Positions 1-12,340 of a stretch of DNA of 64,000 nt are shown here, in pieces; position 1 is the first letter of the stretch, and each line of letters begins with the position of its first letter. Position numbers and translations under genes: made by a program. This DNA is from Candidatus Firestoneibacteriota bacterium. Lineage in GTDB: Bacteria > Oederibacteriota > D2-FULL-39-29. The DNA lies in assembly GCA_903891415.1 (NCBI GenBank), contig CAITEH010000058.1:1-64000 (forward strand). Reading direction: 5' to 3'. The notes beneath the pieces are model-generated. The model had not been told where the DNA came from and ran no database searches. It saw only the letters and a program-made list of their open reading frames with translations.

Positions 1-2091
1 GTCCAGGTCCGCGGCTTCGTACAATTCCTCGGGGATCATTTTCAGGGCCGCGAGATAAAATATGCTTCCCGCACCGACCGCCGCCCAGACTCCCACAACT
101 ATGACGCAGAGCATCGCCATTCTGGGATCCTGCAGCCAGAGCTGGGGCGGGATGTGAAAGAAGGCCAGCACCTGATTAAATAAACCATCCGGCGCGGTAT
201 CATAAAATCTCTTCCAGAGGAGGAGAACCACCAGCGCGCTGGTCACGGCAGGCAGATAAAAACATACCCGGTAAACAACGGTGCCCTTGGGTATTTCATT
301 TAGGAACAGGGCCAGTATTATCGGAGAGACATACCCCAGAAGCAGGGACAGGCCGGCGTAGACAAAGGTATTTTTAAGGGCTATCCAAAAAGTGTCATTG
401 TACAGGACGGACACGAAATTATCAATGCCTATCCATTTGCTCACGCCGATTATCCTGTAATCCTGGAAGGCCATCATCAGGCCCGAAACTATGGGCATAT
501 AACTCCAGACCAGCATGGTCAACACCGCGGGCGCCATCAGCACCCAGCCTAAAAATACCCTGCTCCGGTCTCCCGGTTTCATAGTTATAGTAGTATGGGT
601 CGCCTCTTTTTTCAAAGTAGACATGGTCCCTCTGATATACCTGATAAAGAAGAACCCTATAACGGCAGAAAGAATTACCAGGACAACGGCCACGACCTTT
701 CTCCGGTGCTGCATAACATCTTCCGGAACACTGCCTATGAGCATCTCATTTGTTTTGGCAACAGCTTTATCCAGCTCCTTCTGATAATCTACGTTATCAT
801 ATAGATTGATAGTGGTCAACGGCGGCGACATGAACTTGTAAATATTCTGGCAGTTCCGGCCGTAAGGTTCAGGATGCGCGTAGGTAAGCATCTCCTTATA
901 CATGGAGATCCATTCCTTGGGAACTTCATTAACATATTCATCAAAGCCGAATTTGGTCAGGTAGTCCGGATTAATATATTTTGCGTAGCCGGCCTGAATT
1001 AGCCGGGTTACATTCGTCTTTTTAGCTTCGTCCCCGACCATGTACTGTATATATTTCCAGGCGGCATCCCTGACTCTTTTGTCTTTAGTAGTGGCGCTTA
1101 TGCAATAGGGGCCGGCATTTAATTCGCAGCCACCTATGCCGGTAGGGCCTTTGGGCATGGGCGCTATTCCGGTAACATTAGGATCCAGATCCGTAGGCAC
1201 TATCGTTATGTCTCCGGGCCTGGAGGCGCTGAAGACCATTCCAAGTTTACCTGCTTCAAACTCATCCCATAAGGTCCATAACACGATCTTTGCGACCCCC
1301 TGGTATTCTTTGCCATTTTTTACGAACTTGCCTCTTAAAAGTTTGTGCGCGAACTTCAGGGCCTCAACAGCTTCCTTGCTGTTAAATACAGCTTTCCAAT
1401 TACCGTTTTCATCCTCCTTAACAACATCCCCGCCGGCCTGCCAGAGAATATTAGTCCAGTGCCAGGAAATATCCCCGCCCTGACCGAAAAAGCCGAACCC
1501 TTGAACACCTTGTTCTTTATCGGTCAACTTCACAGCATAGTCATAGAACTCATCCCAGGTTTTTGGAGGCCTGTTAGGATCCAGCCCGGCCTTTTTAAAA
1601 AGGTCCTTCCTGTAGATTAGAGCGGCCACACCCATATCAGAAGGCATGCCCCAGATATGCCCCTTTTGTTTTACCACCGGCCAGACCTGGGGGACGCACC
1701 GGCTGTAGACATCAGTAGTTTTATTCCATTCCTCGAAGTATTCATCCAGGGGATAAACAAAGCCCTGTTCTATAAAAGTGGTGACATTACGGAAAGGAAT
1801 GATCACGACATCCGGCGCTGTGCCTCCCGCGAAAGACATGACCACCGAATCCATCCTCAGCTGATTTTCAAGTTTTACCCCTGAGAGTTCCCGTACTTTA
1901 ATATAAGGATATTTCTTAAGGAAATTTTCAAAAACTTCCCTGCCGATCCTCTCAGTAAGGGACCTGGCGTCTTTTCTCGGGACGTTCATCAATACAATTT
2001 CAACAGGAGCTTCTTTTTCCGCGTGTAAAAAAGTTCCCGGGCAGGTAAGGATCAAAACCGCCAGACAAAATATTGTTACTATTCTTCTCAT
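1..2091 (-). CDS. Extracellular solute-binding protein fused to MalF-type sugar ABC-transporter permease (partial; C-terminus runs off the window start)
   Basis: Missing from the ORF track because it is open at the window edge. Minus-strand reading from ATG at 2091: MRRIVTIFCLAVLILTCPGTFLHAEKEAPVEIVLMNVPRK..., then SBP-type sequence (..FAGGTAPDVVII.., ..LFKKAGLDPNRPPKTWDEFYDYAVKLT..), then in the same frame MalF-like TM segments (..FYLPAVTSALVVLLLWKRFYD..) and the start of an EAA loop (EELYEAADLD) at the window edge. Confidence 0.85.
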   Translation of the reverse strand, partial: MRRIVTIFCLAVLILTCPGTFLHAEKEAPVEIVLMNVPRKDARSLTERIGREVFENFLKKYPYIKVRELSGVKLENQLRMDSVVMSFAGGTAPDVVIIPFRNVTTFIEQGFVYPLDEYFEEWNKTTDVYSRCVPQVWPVVKQKGHIWGMPSDMGVAALIYRKDLFKKAGLDPNRPPKTWDEFYDYAVKLTDKEQGVQGFGFFGQGGDISWHWTNILWQAGGDVVKEDENGNWKAVFNSKEAVEALKFAHKLLRGKFVKNGKEYQGVAKIVLWTLWDEFEAGKLGMVFSASRPGDITIVPTDLDPNVTGIAPMPKGPTGIGGCELNAGPYCISATTKDKRVRDAAWKYIQYMVGDEAKKTNVTRLIQAGYAKYINPDYLTKFGFDEYVNEVPKEWISMYKEMLTYAHPEPYGRNCQNIYKFMSPPLTTINLYDNVDYQKELDKAVAKTNEMLIGSVPEDVMQHRRKVVAVVLVILSAVIGFFFIRYIRGTMSTLKKEATHTTITMKPGDRSRVFLGWVLMAPAVLTMLVWSYMPIVSGLMMAFQDYRIIGVSKWIGIDNFVSVLYNDTFWIALKNTFVYAGLSLLLGYVSPIILALFLNEIPKGTVVYRVCFYLPAVTSALVVLLLWKRFYDTAPDGLFNQVLAFFHIPPQLWLQDPRMAMLCVIVVGVWAAVGAGSIFYLAALKMIPEELYEAADLD

Positions 2092-2174
2092 CTTATGTCT
2101 CCTTTTTGGACACAAACAACAGTTACGCTCCTAACTGCCGCTTAAACTCGCGGATCATTTCAAGACCCCGCCGG

Positions 2175-4070
2175 CTATTGCTCGACCGGCAGTATGATAC
2201 CTTTTATAATTACGTTCTGGAATAGAACAAATACGATCAGTGTCGGCAGAGCGGCCATGACCAGCGCGGTCATTATCAAATATTGCGGCGCCCAGTTTTG
2301 CATGTCATACAACCAGACCATAATGGTCCACATTCTGGGGTCCTGACAGACTATTAAGGCAAAAATAAATGCCCCATAGGCGGCGGTATAAGCCCCCAGA
2401 GCCAAATAGGCCATAACGGGTTTTGTCAACGGCAGTACTATCTTCCAGAAAGTTCCCATTTCAGAAACTCCGTCTATTTTGGCCGCTTCAAACAACTCTT
2501 TAGGCAGGCTGTCGAAAAATCCCTTTAATATAAATATCGAAAATCCGCTCGCAAGCCCCGGTAAGATAAGGGCCCAAAAAGTATTCAAGAAACCCAGTTT
2601 TTTGAGCAGAATAAAATTCGGGATCATCGAAACCTCGCTCGGGAAGGCCATGGTCGCGAGAAAAAACAGCAGGATCTTATAAGAATAGGAAAAATTAAAT
2701 CTTGAAAGCACATAGGCGCAGAGCGGATTAACGGTAAGCACCGTAAGAACCATTATGGTGCAATAAAAAATGGTGTTAAAAACCGCGGGCCCGTGCAGGA
2801 CCACATAATCTGTAACTTCAGAGTAGTTCCGGGTAAAATACTGCCTCCGGATCTTTCCTTCTTCTCTTAATAATTCAAACCAGTCCGTGACCGCGTAGGG
2901 CGGGACCAGGCCGGTAAAGCCTGCATAATTTGAATTATAGACGCGGTTTAAGGCCTCTATATTTTTGTATTTTTCCGAAAGATAATTTTCGTACAGGTTT
3001 TCCGTGGTTTCGGTATAAATATTTTTTAAAGATACCACGGACTTAACAAAAGTGCTCAGATCCCCGAAAGCAACCGGGGTAACCGTGTTAACCGCGTTAG
3101 GAATAGGAATAAGCGAAAAAGAAGTATACCCGGTTCCGTTAAGTTTATTATAAGCAGCTATCGTTTTGTATTTATTTGTGACAAACCGCGCAAACTCCTT
3201 GTTCGCCTCTTTGGTAAACCTGAGATACTGGAGAGGCAGATAAGTCCTTACAAATTGTTCCCATTCAGTTTTGAAACTTTCTTGCGGGACAGTTTTCGCA
3301 AACTTCACCTCATTAAAATCTTTGTAGGCCGTCTTAAATTTATCATTAAATTTTTTGATATCACCGTTATAATCGCCTTTTGTAGACAGGTATCTCCACC
3401 ACATACAGGTGCCGCTGACAGCATAGATAAAACGATCCGGAAGTTTTGACCTGAATTCAAGCCATTCTTTTGTCTTGACCGAATCTTCATTCTGGAAATT
3501 TCTAAGCCATAACTGCTCTCTGGGCACTGTTATAAGCTGGAAATTATCTATAGTTTCAGCATAGGCCGCGTTGAATTTGTCCACATTATTATTGAATCTC
3601 TTCCTGAGCATATCTTGATAAGCTTTCTGAGCTTCACCGATGGTAGGCCGGCCCGTGGTCCGGAGTTCCGTAAAGCCGGTAACCTTATAGGAATCAGGAA
3701 GGCCTTTCTTAAATTCCTCATAATCCCTGACCTGCCGTAAAGTTTCCTTGGATTTGAGATCAACCCGGGGAGCTTTTGCTTCTCTTAACTGATATAAATT
3801 CGTGTACACCTGTTCATTATATCTTTTAGCGTCACCGCCGTACTTCCGGTCAAGGTATTTAACGTAGAGGGCCTCGTTATTATACAGGTATCTGGGGACT
3901 ATTCTCAGCTCGTTCCTGTCAACTTCCGAAGTAACGGACATTCCAAGCATTAAAAGGAAGGGATAGACCATCAGAAGAGCGCCCCCCGTCAGCAAGATAT
4001 ACATTGCCACGATCAACACCCTCATCGAAGTCTTTTTTCTCCCCACTATAGGTATAATCGGCATGACCAA
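2175..4070 (-). CDS. MalG-type carbohydrate ABC-transporter permease with a large repeat-containing insertion after TM1
   Basis: C-terminal ~205 aa is a permease core with EAA loop (EAAKIDGVSEMGTFWKIVLPL); one N-terminal TM; ~375 aa of degenerate repeats between them. Confidence 0.85.
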   Translation of the reverse strand: MVMPIIPIVGRKKTSMRVLIVAMYILLTGGALLMVYPFLLMLGMSVTSEVDRNELRIVPRYLYNNEALYVKYLDRKYGGDAKRYNEQVYTNLYQLREAKAPRVDLKSKETLRQVRDYEEFKKGLPDSYKVTGFTELRTTGRPTIGEAQKAYQDMLRKRFNNNVDKFNAAYAETIDNFQLITVPREQLWLRNFQNEDSVKTKEWLEFRSKLPDRFIYAVSGTCMWWRYLSTKGDYNGDIKKFNDKFKTAYKDFNEVKFAKTVPQESFKTEWEQFVRTYLPLQYLRFTKEANKEFARFVTNKYKTIAAYNKLNGTGYTSFSLIPIPNAVNTVTPVAFGDLSTFVKSVVSLKNIYTETTENLYENYLSEKYKNIEALNRVYNSNYAGFTGLVPPYAVTDWFELLREEGKIRRQYFTRNYSEVTDYVVLHGPAVFNTIFYCTIMVLTVLTVNPLCAYVLSRFNFSYSYKILLFFLATMAFPSEVSMIPNFILLKKLGFLNTFWALILPGLASGFSIFILKGFFDSLPKELFEAAKIDGVSEMGTFWKIVLPLTKPVMAYLALGAYTAAYGAFIFALIVCQDPRMWTIMVWLYDMQNWAPQYLIMTALVMAALPTLIVFVLFQNVIIKGIILPVEQ

Positions 4071-4108: not shown

Positions 4109-5257
4109 CTATTTGGATAGCTCATATATATGAACGCTCCCCGGTTCAATTACGTCCGCAAAAATGTTATCCTTGTCCAGCACAAGCGTCCGGTTGATCC
4201 CGTAGAGATTAAAAATCGAAGATTTGGCGGTGAACTTTATGCCAACTTTGACTTTCTTACTGTTTTTAGTCGGATTAAGAAAAAAAGCGTAAATATTTTC
4301 AGCAGTTTCTTTCACAAGCAGGTTTTCCTCATCCAGCCCCCCGCTTTGAATTTCAAATCTGCCTTTGAAAACATCTTTGGAAACCAGTACCGGGGCTATT
4401 TCCTGTATTAAGCTATGCTGGCGGTTTAAAAGGCTTTCAACTGAGCTATTCAATTTCGCATTTTTCTTCGCCAAACCGCTCTTCAGTTCCATAAAATAAC
4501 CTAGCCCCCTGGCCCCGTTTATAAGGCCGCTCCATAATTCCACGTTGATATCTTCAGTGGCAGGTTCGTGTCCTTCTTTATTTATTGAAGGGAGCAAACC
4601 GCATTCAAAACATGCCATAACAGGAACTCTATCCTCCGACAGTTCTCTTAACTTTTTCACGCCGGCACCGACCCGTTCAGTGTTTTTACCCCACATACTT
4701 ATGGGATACAAGCTGAAACTCAAGATCTCCGGCAGGCCGCATACTTTTTTATAATAGACGGTACTATTTTTTCCCGGAGCTTCCCCGCCAAAAAAACCCG
4801 AAGAAAGATTTATCCAGTTTAAGATCACGGGATTTATGGATTTTACTTCTTTACACCTTTTCTCCAGTTCTTCCGCGCTCAACCGGGACTCACCGGCATC
4901 AGGTTCATCCGCTATCAGGCAGGCAATAATAGCCGGCTCTGTTTTTAGCAGCTCAAGCTTCTTGCTCTCTTTAAGCCATTCATAGCCAATTACCGCGAAA
5001 CTCCTGGCGGCTTTCACGGCGGCTATATATTTGTCAACCGTCACGCCTTTTTTTGGTTCTTTGCCGGCAACAAAAGTATTTATGCCAAAGGAGGCCTGAT
5101 AACTGATGTACTCCGGAGCCTGGTTCAAAGAAAAAACCGGAAAAAACTGCTTTCCATCAATGGTAAAATCTTTATTTATGCCTATTTGAACGGGCCCGGC
5201 AAAACAATATTCAAAAAGCGGAAGAATAAGACAAACAAACGCTATTTTCTTAAACAT
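4109..5257 (-). CDS. Secreted TIM-barrel/glycoside hydrolase-like protein (paralogue 1 of 3 in window)
   Basis: Signal peptide; VQIGINKDFTIDGKQFFPVFSLNQAP.., LSFSLYPISMWGKN.., C-terminal beta-domain; same layout as 32416-33555 and 44287-45492. Confidence 0.65.
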   Translation of the reverse strand: MFKKIAFVCLILPLFEYCFAGPVQIGINKDFTIDGKQFFPVFSLNQAPEYISYQASFGINTFVAGKEPKKGVTVDKYIAAVKAARSFAVIGYEWLKESKKLELLKTEPAIIACLIADEPDAGESRLSAEELEKRCKEVKSINPVILNWINLSSGFFGGEAPGKNSTVYYKKVCGLPEILSFSLYPISMWGKNTERVGAGVKKLRELSEDRVPVMACFECGLLPSINKEGHEPATEDINVELWSGLINGARGLGYFMELKSGLAKKNAKLNSSVESLLNRQHSLIQEIAPVLVSKDVFKGRFEIQSGGLDEENLLVKETAENIYAFFLNPTKNSKKVKVGIKFTAKSSIFNLYGINRTLVLDKDNIFADVIEPGSVHIYELSK

Positions 5258-8895: not shown

Positions 8896-11800
8896 TTATT
8901 CGGCCAGTATCGTGTTCCCTATTTCTTCCCACTTGGAATCGTCTATCACCGTGAGGCCTTTTCGCTTTGCTTTGGGGTCAGTTTCATCAATTGTATCCAG
9001 AAGTTCTCCCAGGTCTTTCAGCATGGTCTCCATTTTTGAAACATCTCCCTCGGCGTAATCCATTGATTTTATCGTCTTGGGTATGCATGCGGGAAGATTA
9101 TATCTGAAGGACTCTTCATAGACACGGGCACTGGCGCTGCCCAAAAGGCCGGAATTACCGCCCATGCCAAAATTCGCGAACCTGGAGACCGGGGCCCTCG
9201 TACTGTCGTCATCCAGAACATTTACCGTATTATAGGTATCGTTTTTTCCGGCGACCAATCCTGTTTTCCTGCCCAAAACAGCAGAACCGTAAATAAAACT
9301 ATGGTTACTTGTAGTCCCATCATAGTAGAAAAGATTATCGGTCTGGGAATAGAAAATAACCTTATTTAGATTCCGGACTACAAACTGCGGGTTGGTGGCC
9401 TGACTAAAGGTAATTTCTGAGGGTGGATGCAAGTCTTTGTTGGTATTCTCCTGAAAAGAAATATAGACCTGCCCCGCTGATATAACGGCTACAGGATTGG
9501 CCCTTTCGTCTCCCATAGTATAGGGGCAGGGAACCCAGACGCTTGAGTTATTCCAGTAACTGTAGTTGATACTCCCCAAATATACATCCTTTGTTGAAAC
9601 TATCGTTATTTTTTTCTTCGGCACGCCTGTAATGAATAACGGCACCTCCGCAAATATCAACCCGTACTTCGGCCAGTTATCCTCATCCAGCTGAGAAAGG
9701 TCCAGTCCCACATAATCCACCCACTGGTCGGTGCAGATAACCTTGTAGGGATTGTTAATGGCCCCACTCACGGATATTATTTCCTTCCTGTTCGATGTGT
9801 AGGTTATATTAACAGACTGAATTCCAATACTCTGCGGATCGCTGTTAATGAACTGAATTGAACCGTAGTCTATTTCTGCGTTTCCTCCGCCCTCAAGTAT
9901 ATAGCTTACTTCCCAGGCAAATGTCCCGCCCGGCCCGCCTATCGCAGGAATACCTGCCCCGGCAAAATCCGTAAAGGTAGTACCGTCCCCTTTTACCCAT
10001 GCTCCGCCGTGCCACCAGCCCTGCGGAACTCCAAGATAATTCACCACCGCGGTTTCACCTATATGCGAAACGGTTGCTGTATCTGTTTTAAAGAAGTTTA
10101 CATACGCTCCGGCAGCGGCTAAAGGCTGGTAATGCAGGCCTGCTGTTGCAGGGTAAGCAACCGGATCACCAACACAACCCATTTCTGGCCTGCCAAACCA
10201 GTACACGGCTCCAGCATGTGTCGTATGATCCCAGCCGGTCGGATTTACACCGGTTACCGTATTTCTTATCATAGGCCTTAGATTGACCTGCGCCCCGCCG
10301 CCGGCTTTTATCAAGCCTGAATGCGGTTCATATTGGGCAGTTCCCAAAGGGGCAGTGCGTTGCTCCCACTCAATCCAGCGCGAGTCATAGCCGGAAGCGC
10401 TTATCCCGTTCACTCCCCATTGCGGGCTCATATCAACCCCGTTGCCGTCTTTCGGCCCGGTAACAGGGATTGGGCTTGTTGTTATATCTTCCCGCCAGCC
10501 GGTACCAAAAGGCATCCCGTTATATTTTGAAAACCAGTGCCGGTTGCTATAGCCGTACTCATTCCCCGGATTAAGCGAGTAGTCATAAGTATTTATTACA
10601 GTGGCCGAGATCCCTCCCGGATTCATAAAAGAGGCCGTCTGATAGTACCTCCCCCACCCGTACTCCGCGTCAAGAGGGATCTCATTACTGAGAAAGTTCT
10701 TCATCACTACCGTGCCCCCGATTATATCCCAGTTCACAGGGCTTATCTGCGCATCCGGAAAATAATTCGTCGTATCGTTGGTACCGTAAAGCATATGGCA
10801 TTTATTCGCCTTGATAGGCGACCCGGCTCCTAAATTAAACCCCGGCCTGAAAATTATACTCGGATTGTTATACCAGTAACTTTCACCGCTGATTATCTGA
10901 TAATCATCATTATTGACATTCCAGCCCCCGACACTCAGATTTTTACAGGTGGCATAGGTGAAAGGATTATAATACGCAAAATCATAATCAACCATCGGGT
11001 TTAAAACCGTGGGAAAGGTCGCCAGTCCGCCGGGTTTGCCGTGCTGAAGAAAACTGACCACCTCTTCACCATGATTTACAAAAGGAAAAGGCGTTTTCCT
11101 TTTTGCACCCATATTATAAAAACCACCGATCTTGGCCCCGGGTATGGAGGTACTTTTGGTGTTCTTTATATAAAAATTCTCATCAATATACCTGTTGAAA
11201 ACATTATAGACCTCGTCTTTTGTCGGACAGTAGATATTATACGCCCCGTGGAATTTGTCCTGCAGAAGGTGCCTGGTCTTCCCGTCAAGCTGCTGGACAT
11301 CAAAGGTTACGTTGGGAGTGGACTGCGTGGGCACGGGCTGGTAATAGTCAAAATTCGGGTACCAGTAATTATTGTTAGTTATGATAGCATCATTGTACTG
11401 GAAAGCGCCCGGAACGACATTGCTGTCGGTATTGTGCGTAAAGTAATGCTGGTCTGTCGGGATCCCGGTCCAGTCAGGTGTACCCCATTTTACAACTCCT
11501 TCCCCGACCCTTACATCCCCGTCAAAGGGATACGGAACCCAGAAGGTCCCGTTACAGTGTATCGTGGGGCCTTTTAAAGTTTCACTCTTCATAAAATATG
11601 AATGATTAATTACATATCCGCTGGTTGAAGGCGAATCCCTGCTGACTGCCACAAAAAATGACCCGTTGGCGTAGACCGGCCCGATTATCCAATCCGAGTT
11701 TATTTTCATTCCCGAATCCCCGTTCCAGAAAAATAGATAATCCGTCGGTGAATCCATCCGGAGCCGCAGGATAAGGGACACCCTGAAACCGTCCGTCCTT

Positions 11801-12237
11801 TCTTCGGGAAGATATTCGTCCAGCCGTTTGTACTTTTCAATCGGTACGGTTATTCCTTCCGACGCTATAATTATTTCATGCACGCCCGGCCCGTTTATCG
11901 GGGAGATCCCGACTTTATACGAACCGCTGACCGTTCCGTCGCTGTTGGTTCCAAAATTTTTCCCTTTGGCCAGGCCCTTGCAGATGCTGACAATTCCGCT
12001 GTAGCCGTTGTTCTTATCCGGGTCCAATTCGGGATCAAACCAGTTCTTTACCACATAATATTTTGCTTCAGAAAGCCCCGCTTTTGCTATCCAGAAGGCC
12101 TTTTCACTTTCGGAACTTTTTGTTATATGCATGTAGTTGAGGAGGGTAAGCTGCAGGAGAACACCGGCAAGAAAGAGAAGCATTACCATAAGGACTAATG
12201 TCAATACTAAGACCGACCCCTTTTCTTTTCTTCTCAT
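8896..12237 (-). CDS. PilX-type/prepilin-like large surface protein (tandem copy 2)
   Basis: N-term MRRKEKGSVLVLTLVLMVMLLFLAGVLLQLTLLNYMHITKSSESEKAFWIAKAGLSEAKYYV (PilX N-terminal-like). ORF track starts at 12279; the ATG at 12237 matches the start of the neighbouring paralogue. Confidence 0.7.
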   Translation of the reverse strand: MRRKEKGSVLVLTLVLMVMLLFLAGVLLQLTLLNYMHITKSSESEKAFWIAKAGLSEAKYYVVKNWFDPELDPDKNNGYSGIVSICKGLAKGKNFGTNSDGTVSGSYKVGISPINGPGVHEIIIASEGITVPIEKYKRLDEYLPEERTDGFRVSLILRLRMDSPTDYLFFWNGDSGMKINSDWIIGPVYANGSFFVAVSRDSPSTSGYVINHSYFMKSETLKGPTIHCNGTFWVPYPFDGDVRVGEGVVKWGTPDWTGIPTDQHYFTHNTDSNVVPGAFQYNDAIITNNNYWYPNFDYYQPVPTQSTPNVTFDVQQLDGKTRHLLQDKFHGAYNIYCPTKDEVYNVFNRYIDENFYIKNTKSTSIPGAKIGGFYNMGAKRKTPFPFVNHGEEVVSFLQHGKPGGLATFPTVLNPMVDYDFAYYNPFTYATCKNLSVGGWNVNNDDYQIISGESYWYNNPSIIFRPGFNLGAGSPIKANKCHMLYGTNDTTNYFPDAQISPVNWDIIGGTVVMKNFLSNEIPLDAEYGWGRYYQTASFMNPGGISATVINTYDYSLNPGNEYGYSNRHWFSKYNGMPFGTGWREDITTSPIPVTGPKDGNGVDMSPQWGVNGISASGYDSRWIEWEQRTAPLGTAQYEPHSGLIKAGGGAQVNLRPMIRNTVTGVNPTGWDHTTHAGAVYWFGRPEMGCVGDPVAYPATAGLHYQPLAAAGAYVNFFKTDTATVSHIGETAVVNYLGVPQGWWHGGAWVKGDGTTFTDFAGAGIPAIGGPGGTFAWEVSYILEGGGNAEIDYGSIQFINSDPQSIGIQSVNITYTSNRKEIISVSGAINNPYKVICTDQWVDYVGLDLSQLDEDNWPKYGLIFAEVPLFITGVPKKKITIVSTKDVYLGSINYSYWNNSSVWVPCPYTMGDERANPVAVISAGQVYISFQENTNKDLHPPSEITFSQATNPQFVVRNLNKVIFYSQTDNLFYYDGTTSNHSFIYGSAVLGRKTGLVAGKNDTYNTVNVLDDDSTRAPVSRFANFGMGGNSGLLGSASARVYEESFRYNLPACIPKTIKSMDYAEGDVSKMETMLKDLGELLDTIDETDPKAKRKGLTVIDDSKWEEIGNTILAE

Positions 12238-12340
12238 AAAACCCCTCCGAAAACTCTTCCATATTATGTTGCCGGGCATTAAGCCCTGACCCTGTATATA
12301 GTTTAAAATATGATTAGCAGGTTGTCAAGAGAAAATATCC

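Follow-up and report, generated by a model that had tools for sequence, protein, structure and literature searches.

Maltose-type importers are textbook systems whose binding protein is not attached but has to find the permease, and in the E. coli system the permease subunit MalF carries a large periplasmic loop (P2) near the face on which the substrate-binding protein (SBP) docks. Importers in which the SBP is joined to the permease also exist, GlnPQ being one. In OpuA, the SBP domain is joined to the TMD through a linker and a membrane anchor (PMC11065425). Here we describe a locus in which a MalG-type permease with five repeats inserted in its TM1-TM2 loop (hereafter the solenoid MalG) lies beside an SBP-MalF fusion. 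It occupies one end of a 64,000-nucleotide stretch of contig CAITEH010000058.1 (the window), from a Candidatus Firestoneibacteriota bacterium.

The permease gene lies on the minus strand, where its reading frame, stop included, covers positions 2175-4070. The ORF tool placed the start at TTG 4070 (a 631-aa reading, to which all residue numbers refer). Translation probably begins with the ATG at 4064, which has AGGAGG ahead of it and which we prefer because M3 is conserved across the family, giving a protein of 629 aa (2175-4064). The C-terminal part holds a BPD_transp_1 permease core (aa 457-623, 2202-2702; Pfam, E = 3e-18) with an EAA-type coupling loop, EAAKIDG (aa 528-534), that is conserved in the family, and this core alone is matched by the UgpE (2.5e-22) and MalG (1.6e-17) models, both below their equivalog cut-offs. 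Searching the PDB with the family profile recovered E. coli MalG of MalFGK2 (2r6g, 5e-18), SugB (7cad, 5e-18) and AlgM2 (4tqu, 1e-20), which share with it the permease core, the EAA-type loop and the arrangement of TM1; in the same sequence search MalF was matched over the permease core only. TM1 corresponds to aa 14-45 (3936-4031), which form a helix in the model, align to ordinary MalG and, by MalG topology, would span the membrane.

The same genome encodes an ordinary MalG of 271 aa, which aligns on both sides of an insert of ~360 aa (aa 52-414), and the TM1-TM2 (P1) loop, which is short in ordinary MalG, accounts for nearly all of the added length. The sequence-only reading had described a MalG-type permease with repeats after TM1, which this comparison bears out, and its span of 2793-3923 came close to the boundaries now set at 2829-3917 from the repeats, the fold model and the alignment. 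MalG topology would place the insert on the periplasmic side, in agreement with the extracytoplasmic domain proposed there. Nonsynonymous divergence is higher in the insert than in the permease core (dN 0.20 versus 0.04), with synonymous sites saturated; because dN is low while synonymous change is saturated, the insert is under purifying selection, less strongly so than the core.

The insert consists of five divergent repeats of ~70 aa each, R1 (aa 56-126, 3693-3905), R2 (aa 127-211, 3438-3692), R3 (aa 212-280, 3231-3437), R4 (aa 281-345, 3036-3230) and R5 (aa 346-412, 2835-3035), all on the minus strand and delimited by profile-profile comparison and a unit HMM, with R5 additionally holding a Pfam GH42 match. 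About five related segments had been noticed by eye between TM1 and the EAA-bearing core, and the self-comparison leaves little doubt that they are real: when repeat segments from 89 homologues were compared as profiles, all ten pairs were significant (E from 8e-12 to 3e-24, scores 52-105), and column-shuffled controls (30 per pair) scored no higher than 21, which rules out chance. The unit HMM (67 positions, built with R3-R5 of the window protein and without its R1 and R2) finds five matches in the window protein, at aa 58-123, 146-186, 211-279, 282-346 and 348-406, each with an i-E of at most 8e-9 in a one-sequence search. In most family members four or five units lie above threshold, and the insert keeps its length from one phylum to another. 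A branch of shorter proteins (506-543 aa, locus L037) has about three units and probably lost the others, since it nests within Armatimonadota that have the full insert. The most conserved position of the unit is a structural-looking Asn. The same repeats were looked for inside SBP-MalF and none was found.

An earlier full-length model, built from 12 sequences, gave a poor membrane part, and for this reason the insert was folded separately, from an alignment of 78 sequences. The resulting model is confident (pLDDT 94, pTM 0.91) and repeats a helix-helix-helix-short-strand unit; in a structure search of the PDB, no entry matched the fold of the whole insert.

The partner gene (1-2115, minus strand) encodes the SBP-MalF fusion and is cut by the contig end within its MalF part. 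In complete homologues SBP_bac_1 and BPD_transp_1 occur in one ORF, the SBP being covalently joined to the permease subunit, as in other SBP-permease fusion importers, via a hydrophobic helix. The fusion predicted earlier beside the MalG-type gene is thereby confirmed, and the neighbourhood search shows that the two genes are nearly always paired: among 75 loci with enough upstream sequence, a same-strand fusion of at least 780 aa adjoins the solenoid MalG in at least 66, and of 98 genomes, the 11 that encode a solenoid MalG all encode an SBP-MalF fusion as well. An adjacent fusion was not seen at eight or nine of the 75 loci, although one of these, L039, does carry a fusion in an overlapping reading frame. 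The genome G048 encodes a shortened solenoid MalG of about three units (L037, 8972-10483) and an SBP-MalF fusion on another contig (L153, 7354-9813), each standing alone. In G056, a distant SBP-MalF fusion is paired with a MalG without solenoid. On this account we reject the idea that fusion and solenoid strictly depend on each other, and tethering does not require the solenoid. At locus L163 (1489-4692), the gene after an SBP-MalF fusion of 751 aa encodes an ordinary MalG of 315 aa that has no solenoid.

In almost all other loci SBP-MalF precedes MalG, whereas MalG comes first in the window (1-4070) and in the sister genome (L043, 2330-6711). In six loci from Lentisphaerota, Planctomycetota and Verrucomicrobiota (L071, L097, L100, L116, L117 and L122), the MalF part of the fusion has, in a periplasmic loop, ~100 extra residues that include two hydrophobic stretches. 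The window's contig (C58) starts within the SBP-MalF gene with a 94-bp stretch (window 1-94) that is identical to the ends of contigs C2 and C6, and contig C11 breaks off at that position in the gene as well. Three SBP-MalF genes were found in the genome versus one detected solenoid MalG. Judged by the gene order of the sister genome, two of the three probably follow MalG in tandem; a further MalG could be missing, because the assembly is ~87% complete.

The solenoid MalG is an old multi-phylum family, a known type of transporter in a widely distributed variant form. The best 80 of 432 confirmed loci come from Armatimonadota, Lentisphaerota (including the cultured Lentisphaera marina), Kiritimatiellota, Verrucomicrobiota, Planctomycetota, Cloacimonadota, Latescibacterota and others. 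Members also occur in Candidatus Firestonebacteria, to which the genome of the window is assigned through its nearest named relative, KR_bin-0439 (80% identical). The insert is present in 30 of 61 sampled genomes of the phylum of G048, which groups among Armatimonadota in the tree. A search for phage or viral relatives returned none, and in the full text of open-access papers we found no description of this design.

One OB_MalK ATPase was found in each of the 13 genomes searched, unlinked to the solenoid MalG; at one locus (L123), a MalK gene lies beside the importer. Multitask ATPases that serve several sugar importers are known elsewhere (PMC7658222). In some loci, genes for GH127, sulfatase and alpha-L-fucosidase are found near the importer, which suggests a carbohydrate as the substrate. 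The idea of an unusual glycan importer therefore survives in part: the context and the fusion partner fit it, but the design is spread over many phyla rather than peculiar to the window, and any direct role of the repeats in glycan handling is conjectural. Upstream of the permease gene is a 382-aa secreted-looking protein (4109-5257, minus strand) with a counterpart in the sister genome (L043, 1160-2308); searches of Pfam and of PDB sequences gave no match to it, and it is possibly a new glycan-active protein. Farther away (8896-12279, minus strand), a 1127-aa ORF begins with a type IV pilin/PilX-like signal (GSVLVLTLVLMVMLLFLAG...) and is unusually large for a minor pilin.

The repeats had been likened by eye to a stretch of GH42 beta-galactosidases. 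This likeness is real, and local. The repeat-unit profile matches residues 149-217 of the GH42 enzyme 1kwg at E = 3.6e-12, followed by many GH42, GH50, GH14 and GH167 enzymes, and composition is not the cause, as a reversed-unit profile hits no glycosidase and gives one unrelated match (E = 0.098). Foldseek recovers mostly the same glycosidases, none of them significant overall; in the GH42 enzyme 6ptm, 41 positions superpose at 1.5 Å. The shared segment starts just past the N-E strand bearing the acid/base, and nothing in the repeats corresponds to the second catalytic region, leaving the insert without the catalytic Glu pair. Of 30 family members, 29 give a Pfam GH42 match (best 1.4e-17), from which the insert might be taken for a glycoside hydrolase of family GH42 joined to the permease. 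We consider this almost certainly wrong and reject it on profile coverage, the model and the absent catalytic residues: the window protein matches over aa 349-382 only (E = 2.6e-4, 20.9 bits, just under the 21-bit cut-off), which is 34 of 376 profile positions, its model shows five helix-rich repeats in place of a complete catalytic barrel, and a true GH42 of the same genome (on contig C4) spans positions 2-374 of 376. In the latter, the shared segment occurs in a single copy and has a loop of five residues that is missing from the permease units. Likewise, GH42 (1kwg), GH50, GH14 and GH167 enzymes contain the unit once, within a TIM barrel and with catalytic residues, whereas the solenoid has five copies and neither barrel nor catalytic residues. 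Judged from the profiles, the repeat unit is related to the segment after the acid/base of GH42 and similar glycosidases, without their catalytic residues; the repeats may have come from a glycosidase, the glycosidase from the repeats, or both from an older common element. Given matches down to 1e-17, automatic counts may list these permeases as beta-galactosidases.

By its BPD_transp_1 core, its EAA-type loop, its MalF and family-1 SBP partner and the MalK-type ATPase of the genome, the protein classes on sequence grounds as a CUT1 permease of the MalG type. At a probability of about 0.5, we favour the reading that it supplies the MalG half to a CUT1 importer with an SBP tethered to MalF, and that the solenoid is a periplasmic docking and guiding scaffold, because a tethered SBP is expected at the same face and because, in the surveyed genomes, the solenoid occurs only alongside a tethered SBP. 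Such an importer, of the maltose/oligosaccharide family, would be built from two genes, SBP-MalF and a MalG in which a helical solenoid of five units has developed from the first periplasmic loop; this solenoid would stand over the periplasmic mouth, where it would dock and guide the SBP, and ATP hydrolysis would be supplied by the single MalK-type ATPase encoded elsewhere and probably common to several importers. Counted against docking are the G056 fusion that lacks a solenoid, the eight or nine loci without an adjacent fusion and the unlinked genes of G048. The solenoid might instead bind or thread glycans, holding an oligo- or polysaccharide near the SBP through surfaces inherited from a GH42-like enzyme, a rather unlikely alternative to which the relation to GH42, GH50 and GH14 enzymes and the nearby glycan-degradation genes lend some weight; however, the common segment lies beside the catalytic residues without including them, its most conserved position looks structural, and the loop missing from the units follows GT in GH42 enzymes (FWSQR-like), where we take it to be near the active site. 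That the solenoid serves as a spacer or envelope-contact domain, making contact with a partner in the outer membrane or S-layer, or crowding the mouth, rather than docking the SBP, would suit its occurrence mainly in bacteria with complex envelopes and its constant length across phyla, yet a pure spacer would not need a conserved unit pattern, and we regard it as improbable.

Taken more broadly, the docking scaffold leads to a tentative, somewhat doubtful proposal, that of a distinct class of sugar importers, spread over many phyla, in whose permease loop a glycosidase element repeated five times became a solenoid that acts as a built-in docking or selection platform for tethered SBPs, with several SBP-MalF proteins able to share one solenoid MalG. 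Many poorly studied bacteria (Armatimonadota, the PVC phyla, Cloacimonadota) tether the SBP and add a repeat domain at what, by MalG topology, would be its docking face. This arrangement could be used to ask experimentally why certain importers have a tethered SBP, and it is a case of a glycosidase element that occurs as a non-enzymatic repeat. OpuA and GlnPQ import glycine betaine or amino acids, whereas the SBP described here is of the CUT1 sugar type and is joined to MalF alone, with the solenoid on the other permease subunit. The role that we propose for the solenoid is comparable to that of MalF P2, but P2 belongs to MalF and the solenoid to MalG. Finally, MalG, SugB and AlgM2 have a short first periplasmic loop and work with a separate SBP, while the solenoid MalG has ~360 aa of repeats at this position and an SBP that is fused to MalF.
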